From: Nitrospirae bacterium CG2_30_53_67
GTDB lineage: Bacteria; CG2-30-53-67
Direction of reading: 5' to 3'
NCBI GenBank assembly: GCA_001873285.1
Contig: MNYV01000108.1
Location: 1 to 8,541, forward strand
Length of the DNA stretch: 8,541 nt
This document shows, one piece after another, positions 1,282 to 8,541 of the stretch (within the stretch, counting starts at the first letter, position 1; each line of letters starts with the position of its first letter). A model generated the notes under the pieces. The model searched no databases. It was not told the DNA's origin and worked only from the letters and a program-made list of their open reading frames with translations. A program made the position numbers and the translations under genes.

Positions 1282-1323
1282 GGATCATCTCCAAAAGAGT
1301 GGGTGAAAACATCAGGGGTCAAG
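1282..1323 (-). repeat. Left copy of a 42-bp inverted repeat flanking the deoxyhypusine-synthase-like gene
   Basis: This segment is the reverse complement of 2629-2670 with a single mismatch (41/42); the first 31 positions, 1282-1312 against 2670-2640, match perfectly. It begins 8 bases beyond the stop codon of the deoxyhypusine-synthase-like gene and lies between two convergent genes. Similarity ends sharply outside the repeat (T at 1281), and no obvious target-site duplication is seen beside the two copies. It has no T-tract or internal stem of terminator type. Confidence 0.85.
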
Positions 1324-1331
1324 TGAAGCGC

Positions 1332-2429
1332 TCATTTGAATTTTTTCGGCAGGTCCTTCTTCAGGAAAGCCATGAGTTCGTCCCTCCGGTCGTAGAGGCG
1401 TTTGTGTTTCCTCTTGGGATGTTTGGCCAGGACATAGGCCGTAAGAATCGGAAGGGCGATGGTCGTATCCACATAGGCCACCACAGAATCCGGAAGGCGC
1501 TCGGGGTCCACCTTTCCCCAGGAGACGGCCTCGGAAGGGGTCGCACCGGAAAGACCTCCCGTATCCGGCCGGGCATCGGTCACCTGAAGGAAATAGCCGT
1601 GTCCCGAATCCTTAAGTCCGAAGACCTCCTGGATCTGCGGCTCGGTCTGGAGCACGAAATTCTTGGGGGAGCCTCCGCCCATCAGAACCACGCCGCTTTT
1701 TAATCCGTTCTTCTTGGCATGGTAGATGATGGCGGCGGTTTCGTTTACGTCCAGAGAGAGATCGATCCTCGGACCGGCCCCCTTGATGTTCAGCGCTGCG
1801 ATATTCATCCCGATGGAGGAGTCGCCCGGAGAGGAGGTATAGACCGGGACCCCGTGCTGATACGCCGCGGAAAGGAGGCTCACGGTCGGAAGCCCGAGCA
1901 CCTTTTCCCGTTCGGCCACGAACTTCCCGATCCGGTAATGAAGCTCGGCTGTCCCCATCTCTTTCCGGAACTCCGGAGCGGAGAGAATCTCACGGAAAAA
2001 GCTGTCCGTCTTCAGGAGTACGTCGTAGGAAAAGAGCACATCATAGATCCGGATGACCTCTTCCTTCCTGAGCTCCCGGTCATCAAGAAACGGGGTCCCC
2101 CGGTGCAGCGTCAGCCCGATGCCGAAATGGGTGTCGTGGTAGAGGTTGGCGCCGGTGGAGACGATCCAGTCCACAAAACCGTTCTCAATCAGCGGGATGA
2201 TGCATGATCGCCCCAAGCCGGCCGGGGTCAGGGCGCCCGAAAGGCTTAAGCCTACGGTCACGTCATCCTTCAGGATTTTCTCGTTCAGGAGCCGGCAGGC
2301 CTCATGAATCCTTCCGGCATTGTAGGCGAGAAAGGTCCGCTCCACGAGTTCGGCAACGGTTTCATCTCCCCGGATGCCGCCGGGCACGATCGGCTCTCCG
2401 GAAAGATAAGGATGTTTGTTCTTTGGCAT
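1332..2429 (-). CDS. Deoxyhypusine-synthase-like protein, probable polyamine-metabolism enzyme
   Basis: The 365-residue product belongs to the NAD-dependent deoxyhypusine synthase family, which transfers an aminobutyl group from spermidine through an enzyme-lysine imine. The catalytic lysine is present as Lys306 in AVSWGK, preceded by the family segment SGATPSEA. Other family marks are [12 protein letters not shown] (62-73), [11 protein letters not shown] (91-101), a SPGDSS motif and [12 protein letters not shown]. Length matches the family. Bacteria lack eIF5A, so the acceptor is probably a small amine such as putrescine (homospermidine formation) or agmatine; the sequence does not settle this. 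ATGs at 2495, 2447 and 2438 are possible, but GGAGG at 2441-2445 lies 11 nt before the ATG at 2429 and only 2 nt before that at 2438, so 2429 is preferred. The gene sits between inverted repeats and probably has its own promoter or receives read-through from the leuS operon. Confidence 0.92.
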
Positions 2430-2475
2430 GATAGACATAACCTCCATTATTTTGATATAGGTTCTTCTCTCATTT

Positions 2476-2501
2476 AGTGGGTAAAAAGGGTTCAAGTGAA
2501 G
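2476..2501 (-). repeat. Degenerate direct copy of the flanking repeat, just upstream of the deoxyhypusine-synthase-like gene
   Basis: On the plus strand it reads AGTGGGTAAAAAGGGT followed by TCAAGTGAAG. This matches 1298-1328 (AGTGGGTGAAAACATC then AGGGGTCAAGTGAAG) if a gap of five bases is allowed. Both copies are in the same orientation and lie close to the two ends of the gene, so the gene has degenerate direct repeats as well as inverted repeats around it. The copy lies in the gene's 5' leader or promoter region. Confidence 0.5.
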
Positions 2502-2540
2502 TACTTAAACGCAAACAAAAGCTCCGGAGAAAAACACTAA

Positions 2541-2571
2541 AACCCTTGACCGCTGATGTTTTTAGCACTTC
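2541..2571 (+). repeat. Third related copy of the CCTTGACC...ATGTTTT repeat core
   Basis: The plus strand carries CCCTTGACCGCTGATGTTTT followed by TAGCACTTC. It matches the core of the long repeat, which reads CTTGACCCCTGATGTTTT on the minus strand at 1323-1306 and CTTGACCCCTTATGTTTT on the plus strand at 2629-2646. It abuts the left arm of the 2572-2601 hairpin. The copy is partial: homology fades after the ATGTTTT core. Confidence 0.5.
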
Positions 2572-2601
2572 ACCCCGTTAGAGGATAACCTCTAACGGGG
2601 T
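2572..2601. repeat. Perfect 13-bp-stem hairpin (REP-like palindrome)
   Basis: The arms ACCCCGTTAGAGG (2572-2584) and CCTCTAACGGGGT (2589-2601) are exactly complementary and separated by a 4-nt loop, ATAA. No T-run follows on either strand, so it is not a conventional intrinsic terminator, although it could stabilise or end transcripts of the leftward operon. Its position inside a cluster of related repeats, between two genes, resembles the repetitive extragenic palindromes spread by REP-associated transposases. That is a comparison of form only; no transposase is present here. Confidence 0.7.
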
Positions 2602-2609
2602 TCACTCGA

Positions 2610-2641
2610 CCCCTTGACTCCTTGGCCCCTTGACCCCTTAT
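2610..2641 (+). repeat. Imperfect 16-bp tandem duplication
   Basis: CCCCTTGACTCCTTGG (2610-2625) is followed immediately by CCCCTTGACCCCTTAT (2626-2641), a match at 13 of 16 positions. The second unit forms part of the right inverted-repeat copy, so the duplication probably arose within the repeat family by slippage or partial duplication. Confidence 0.55.
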
Positions 2642-2670
2642 GTTTTCACCCACTCTTTTGGAGATGATCC
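2629..2670 (+). repeat. Right copy of the 42-bp inverted repeat
   Basis: It pairs with 1282-1323 at 41 of 42 positions, with the outer 31 perfect. Together the two copies bracket a 1389-bp segment whose only gene is the deoxyhypusine-synthase-like one. The bases just outside (TTAACTT) do not match those outside the left copy. It lies 55 bases beyond the stop codon of the small 101-residue gene. Confidence 0.85.
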
Positions 2671-2725
2671 TTAACTTATATCGCCATCCAGCTTTCTTGC
2701 GGGTGAATCAAAATCCTTTGATCTT

Positions 2726-7950: not shown

Positions 7951-8541
7951 TTATGCATTCATATATGAAAGGGTTTTCCTGACCCGGATCCTGGCGGAGG
8001 GGTCTTCCACGATTTTCCCGATCCGGTGGGCCGCGAGTGCGCCCTTTTCCTTCAGCGTTTGAATCAGTCGGTCCGATTCTTCCGGAGCCACGGCGATCAA
8101 GAGGCCGCCCGAGGTTTGGGCATCGCAGAGCACCAGCCGTTCTATCTCTGAAATGGAGGGGTCCCAGACCACGGCATCCGCCAGAAACTTGAGGTTGGCC
8201 CGGGTTCCGCCCGGGATATATCCCTCGCGCGCCAGGCCCCAGACCTCCTCGATCACAGGGACCTGATTCAGGTAGATCTCGGCGCCGACGCCGGTGGACA
8301 GGGCCATTTCGTGGAGGTGCCCGAGAAGGCCGAAACCCGTGATGTCGGTGCAGGCATGGGGTGAGACGGTTCTCATAACCTCAGCCGCAGCCCGGTTGAG
8401 CGTGGCCATCAGGATGGTGATCTTTTCGATCAGCTCCGGGCCAGCGGCATGGTTCTTGATGGCCGTGGTCACGATCCCGCTCCCCAGGGGCTTGGTCAGG
8501 ATCAGATCATCCCCCACGCGGGCTCCGGCATTGGCCACGAT
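7951..8541 (-). CDS. selD: Selenide, water dikinase SelD, C-terminal part (cut by the window edge)
   Basis: SelD makes selenophosphate from selenide and ATP, the selenium donor for selenocysteine and selenouridine in tRNA. The window holds 196 residues, roughly the C-terminal 55-60% of a protein usually near 345 residues. The frame stays open to 8541, so the GTG at 8538 is not the true start. Visible motifs are the LTKPLGSGIV strand, DITGFGLLGHLHEMA, GGTRANL and DAQTSGGLLIAV, all typical of the second half of the AIRS/SelD fold. The catalytic Cys or Sec and Lys near the N-terminus lie outside the window, so it cannot be said whether this SelD is itself a selenoprotein. The gene converges on the MarC gene, with only 10 nt between stop codons and no visible terminator. 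Confidence 0.96.
   Translation of the reverse strand: MVANAGARVGDDLILTKPLGSGIVTTAIKNHAAGPELIEKITILMATLNRAAAEVMRTVSPHACTDITGFGLLGHLHEMALSTGVGAEIYLNQVPVIEEVWGLAREGYIPGGTRANLKFLADAVVWDPSISEIERLVLCDAQTSGGLLIAVAPEESDRLIQTLKEKGALAAHRIGKIVEDPSARIRVRKTLSYMNA

Follow-up and report, generated by a model that had tools for sequence, protein, structure and literature searches.

A 42-bp inverted repeat around a homospermidine biosynthesis gene very probably derives from two copies of a dispersed miniature transposon

The window, an 8,541-nucleotide stretch of DNA from Nitrospirae bacterium CG2_30_53_67, contains one gene lying between near-identical inverted arms, raising the question of whether the arms bound a unit that moves or flips together with the gene. 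The window is contig C108 of a 2.36-Mb genome of 183 contigs, an assembly that is 95% complete. The arms (1282-1323 and 2629-2670) are 42 nt long, pair at 41/42 positions (98% complementary) and are spaced 1305 nt apart. The second-best inverted pair of at least 30 nt in the window reaches only 76%, and a chance origin of the 42-bp arms is thus excluded. The initial annotation had described this repeat with the same number of matches, enclosing a deoxyhypusine-synthase-like gene whose stop codon (1332-1334) is 8 nt from the left arm, and these observations were all confirmed. The encoded protein matches the deoxyhypusine-synthase fold family (PF01916, 235 bits) and the NCBI model for homospermidine biosynthesis (NF001980, 551 bits, cut-off 450), and is best named a homospermidine biosynthesis protein. 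Three readings of the arms had been offered: a non-autonomous mobile unit enclosing the gene, an invertible segment, and two copies of a dispersed repeat flanking the gene by chance. The evidence below supports the third and speaks against the first two. The relevant features of the window are as follows.

2460-2670, minus strand: complete miniature transposon (MITE-like), 211 bp, delimited by the ends of copies genome-wide and absent from the orthologous site of the sister species
2643-2670, minus strand: left terminal inverted repeat, GGATCATCTCCAAAAGAGTGGGTGAAAA, from the alignment of copies
2460-2487, minus strand: right terminal inverted repeat, reverse complement GGTTCTTCTCTCATTTAGTGGGTAAAAA; 2460-2489 matches the right-end pattern with 1 mismatch
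2573-2600, no strand assigned: nested perfect hairpin of 28 nt, CCCCGTTAGAGG..CCTCTAACGGGG, between TTCA duplications at 2569-2572 and 2601-2604
1282-1334, plus strand: truncated copy with the left end only; no right end follows
1332-2438, minus strand: homospermidine-biosynthesis/deoxyhypusine-synthase-like gene, a host gene outside the element, from profile matches and the ortholog in G003

The complete 211-bp element, which lies between two protein genes, contributes its left end as the right arm; the left arm is part of the truncated copy (about 1282-1334). The arms thus come from copies unequal in length, and their symmetry is limited to the 42 bp that they have in common. The truncated copy is shortened internally between GGGGTCAAG repeats, and its end meets the stop codon of the gene. 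The idea that it had supplied this stop codon was dropped, since the gene of the sister species G003 ends at the same codon. The complete element, read from 2670 to 2460 on the minus strand, stops about 22 nt before the likely start of the gene, an ATG at 2438 with GGAGG ahead; an alternative TTG start at 2495 falls within the element. A promoter scan gave weak matches only, near the edge of the element, and no terminators.

A search of the own genome with the left arm gave 40 scored matches. With the 28-base left core and up to 3 mismatches, at least 105 copies were found (57 forward, 48 reverse), compared with 0 for the reversed core as a control. This bears out the reading in which two dispersed-repeat copies flank the gene by chance, and the genome-wide search suggested in the initial annotation indeed returned many scattered, mostly intergenic copies. 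Aligned copies have a sharp left boundary between GGA and TCATCTCC, and the right end, TTTTTACCCACTAAATGGGAGAAGAACC, is likewise sharply bounded and present in at least 77 copies (up to 3 mismatches, own genome). Over 28 bp, the right end repeats the left in inverted orientation, with agreement at 21/28 positions and the terminal consensus GGwTCwTCTCC...GTGGGTrAAAA. Pairing of left and right ends allowed extraction of 56 elements of 118-411 bp, none of which contains a transposase gene.

Target-site duplication was assessed for 55 of the 56 pairs, a copy on the palindromic contig C47 being excluded, with flanks re-paired at random as the shuffle control. The 8-bp flanks were 67% identical, compared with 43.6% in shuffles (sd 2.1, maximum 50.7%, 1000 trials), and the signal was specific to a length of 8, being absent at other lengths. 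Flanks agreed at 7 or 8 of 8 positions in 23/55 elements and perfectly in 12/55. The 23 well-matched pairs have a target A+T content of 85%, compared with 50% farther out. After removal of each element and one duplication by script, open frames of at least 150 codons crossed 13/45 rejoined insertion sites and 62/75 control positions; since long frames seldom cross the rejoined sites, the insertions are mostly intergenic. Both genomes of the genus contain the repeat in abundance, and other genera of the same family show only a few weak matches. Among named genomes, those matching exactly are metagenome assemblies, namely Hainich H32-bin143 (apparently identical with or close to G003) and Deltaproteobacteria bacterium CG_2015-17_54_20. 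At two contig ends, L063 (G000:C154:6800-7400) and L064 (G000:C47:6400-6950), near-perfect palindromes include unique sequence flanking an element copy. As the flanks are mirrored too, these were discounted as artefacts of assembly, probably hairpin or assembly chimeras; the C154 copy is outside the paired set.

The locus was compared with its counterparts in relatives. The G003 gene is 95% identical and the order LeuS-LptE-ORF-gene is kept, the ORF being small. At the orthologous site, window positions 2457-2716 (260 nt) correspond to about 15 nt in G003 and the element is absent; no element sequence was found downstream of the stop codon of the G003 gene, where the left fragment would lie. 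The locus comparison proposed in the initial annotation thus gave the same gene order and orientation in G003, with neither repeat copy present. Beyond the insertion itself, the flank of the window copy shows further differences from the empty site, and the sequences on either side of this copy, TAAGTTAA and TATATCAA, are 5/8 identical with no clean duplication. Both G001 and G002 have the gene with the same upstream neighbours in the same orientation. These shared neighbours indicate a long-established gene at a stable position, around which the repeats came or went.

Terminal inverted repeats, 8-bp duplications and intergenic sites are marks of a DNA transposon, and the inverted pair very probably consists of two copies, independent of each other, of a single dispersed non-autonomous DNA transposon (MITE). 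The family has terminal inverted repeats and a duplication of fixed length (8 bp), is short and multicopy, and lacks a transposase; presence/absence is seen on comparison of the window locus with G003, whose orthologous site lacks the element. One copy would have inserted just ahead of the homospermidine-type gene, within the leader of a gene string that is conserved in other respects, and a second left end, past the 3' end of the gene, would have been truncated through deletion.

We considered whether the repeat is instead a conserved structured RNA or regulatory hairpin family (REP/BIME-like, intergenic repeat units) kept for its function. The window copy folds far better than shuffled sequences (-83.8 kcal/mol, z -6.1) and the copies are mostly intergenic, as such a family would be. 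However, the 8-bp duplications and the empty site in G003 indicate insertion, the interiors of copies vary freely, the inverted ends and nested hairpins account for the strong folding, and the window has no Rfam family match, leaving this explanation improbable. It is more doubtful still that the 1389-bp segment is a switch in which the gene is flipped by recombination between the arms: 42-bp inverted arms could recombine at a low rate, but every relative with the upstream genes retained (the sister G003 and two more) shows the same orientation, the window has no recombinase gene, and the same 42 bp occur more than 100 times in the genome, so that this pair is not special. Near-identical arms on either side of one gene also recall a composite or non-autonomous transposon carrying the gene, but this has almost no likelihood given that upstream neighbours and orientation are the same in G003, G001 and G002, that G003 has the gene in the same order without either arm, that the arms come from copies unlike in size and state, and that copies standing alone within 8-bp duplications of their own occur throughout the genome. 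Both the composite transposon and the invertible segment were rejected on synteny. The 42-bp inverted repeat is real, yet it delimits no mobile or invertible unit, and the false lead of a mobile metabolic cassette is removed. The finding as such has an ordinary explanation, two copies of a miniature transposon; what is unusual is the interior of the element.

In the 531 kb examined, the end motif (GG.TC.TCTCC, 5-9 bases, GTGGGT) occurs only at the ends of the repeat family and at one IS end. This single non-repeat site is the 5' end of an ISL3 (PF01610) transposase gene in G003, which is frame-broken, lacks its 3' part and starts just inside GGGTCTTCTCCCAAACGAGTGGGTAGG. Among the eight genomes of the class, the IS-type end occurs this once, and a second copy of the G003 ISL3 protein was not found; no ISL3 transposase was found in the own genome (95%-complete assembly). 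A related genome, G005, has an intact ISL3 element of 1306 bp with GGTTCT..GTGGGTAA ends and an 8-bp duplication. Because the motif is limited to the repeat ends and the end of the ISL3 gene, an ISL3-type transposase acting in trans is the likely mover of the repeats, a well-supported reading of the end sequences. Movement would be by cut-and-paste, with an ISL3-family DDE transposase recognising the GG.TC.TCTCC..GTGGGT ends. The transposase in trans invoked by the initial annotation is thereby retained for each small repeat copy but not for the gene.

The repeat resembles ISL3 IS elements (PF01610) in its GG.TCTTC and GTGGGT ends and in its 8-bp duplication, as in the intact G005 element, but has no transposase gene, and its end spacing falls 1 nucleotide short of that in the two ISL3 elements described above. 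Having no PF01610 DDE transposase of its own, the repeat is not itself an ISL3 IS and is only likely to depend on one. Like other bacterial IS MITEs it is short, multicopy and transposase-free, with terminal inverted repeats, a duplication of fixed length and IS-like ends; unlike them, its interiors are mosaics of S23 remnants and nested hairpins, not a simple deletion of a parent IS. TIMEs (PMC4133298) are also non-autonomous, with inverted repeats and AT-rich targets, but they are Tn3-derived with duplications of 5-6 bp, whereas the present element has 8 bp and ISL3-type ends. The analysis thus adds, for an uncultured lineage, a description of a miniature transposon family with abundant copies.

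The copies are mosaics of interior modules, and their interiors vary freely. Pieces of the S23 gene (PF05635, 23S rRNA intervening-sequence protein) were detected by motif in 7/56 elements, all decayed, and no intact S23 frame was seen inside any complete element. Many S23-bearing copies break at contig ends, so that assembly may have dropped intact ones. Both the start and the end of the S23 frame appear to lie within inverted GGGGTCAAG-type repeats. The window copy has no S23 fragments; its interior carries a module common to most copies and the 28-nt perfect hairpin, which duplicated 4 bp (TTCA) on entry. Perfect hairpins of this kind (CCCCGTTAGAG..CTCTAACGGGG, 28-31 nt, one of 80 nt) form a second, nested miniature mobile element with perfect 4-bp duplications, seen at 9/10 such hairpins; the loci are window 2569-2604, L008, L014, L074, L111, L114, L161 and L204. 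Upstream of a YebC-like gene, an element copy appears to occupy the same site in two species (L069 on own contig C75, L161 on a Hainich contig). These two copies carry different internal modules, which suggests turnover of modules following insertion. The interiors of the family would descend at least partly from an S23 (IVP) gene element between inverted GGGGTCAAG-type repeats, and may since have decayed by deletions, duplications and secondary insertions of small hairpins.

Elsewhere in the class, S23 genes have inverted, degenerate tandem repeats of 7-9 nt on both sides in 7/12 loci by eye, although alignment scores of the flanks are not always above shuffled controls, making this a lead rather than a controlled survey. 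The flanked loci (L052, L055, L229, L230, L232, L235 and L236) each have their own repeat unit. In 23S rRNA intervening sequences of Coxiella and Leptospira (PMC4990558), an S23 (PF05635) gene likewise lies between stem-forming inverted repeats; the copies described here differ in being dispersed and mostly intergenic, with 8-bp duplications and decayed S23 genes. Their location is thus unlike that of an intervening sequence inside 23S rRNA, the window copy being between protein genes and the others mostly intergenic. One hypothesis, unsettled, holds that S23 intervening sequences are remnants of transposition (PMC4990558). The S23 remnants in the element bear on the spread of these sequences, and the repeat family is a possible illustration of this hypothesis, not a proof of it. 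We tentatively propose that S23/IVP genes with inverted short tandem repeats constitute a mobile unit that gained ISL3-type ends and spread as about 100 mosaic miniature transposons, a scenario that we hold to be somewhat less probable than its negation. If true, the 23S rRNA intervening-sequence protein family would have a concrete means of spread by DNA transposition. A search of the open-licence literature found nothing on MITEs with S23 or intervening sequences.

One S23 locus of the own genome, L213 (G000:C159:7000-8757), has an intact S23/IVP ORF (840-1229) with inverted CAGTG-rich flanks inside a longer ORF (2-1591). The longer ORF encodes 529 aa, is methylase-like by eye with no Pfam match, and is open across the whole insert in a reading frame different from that of S23; it apparently contains three other in-frame repeat insertions, e.g. 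TPLNPPLRRGE. In the window itself, the product of a LysR regulator gene (269-1174) matches the NCBI selenium-metabolism model, and an apparent selenide-water-dikinase fragment is found at the window end (7951-8538), on the same 8.5-kb contig as the LysR gene.
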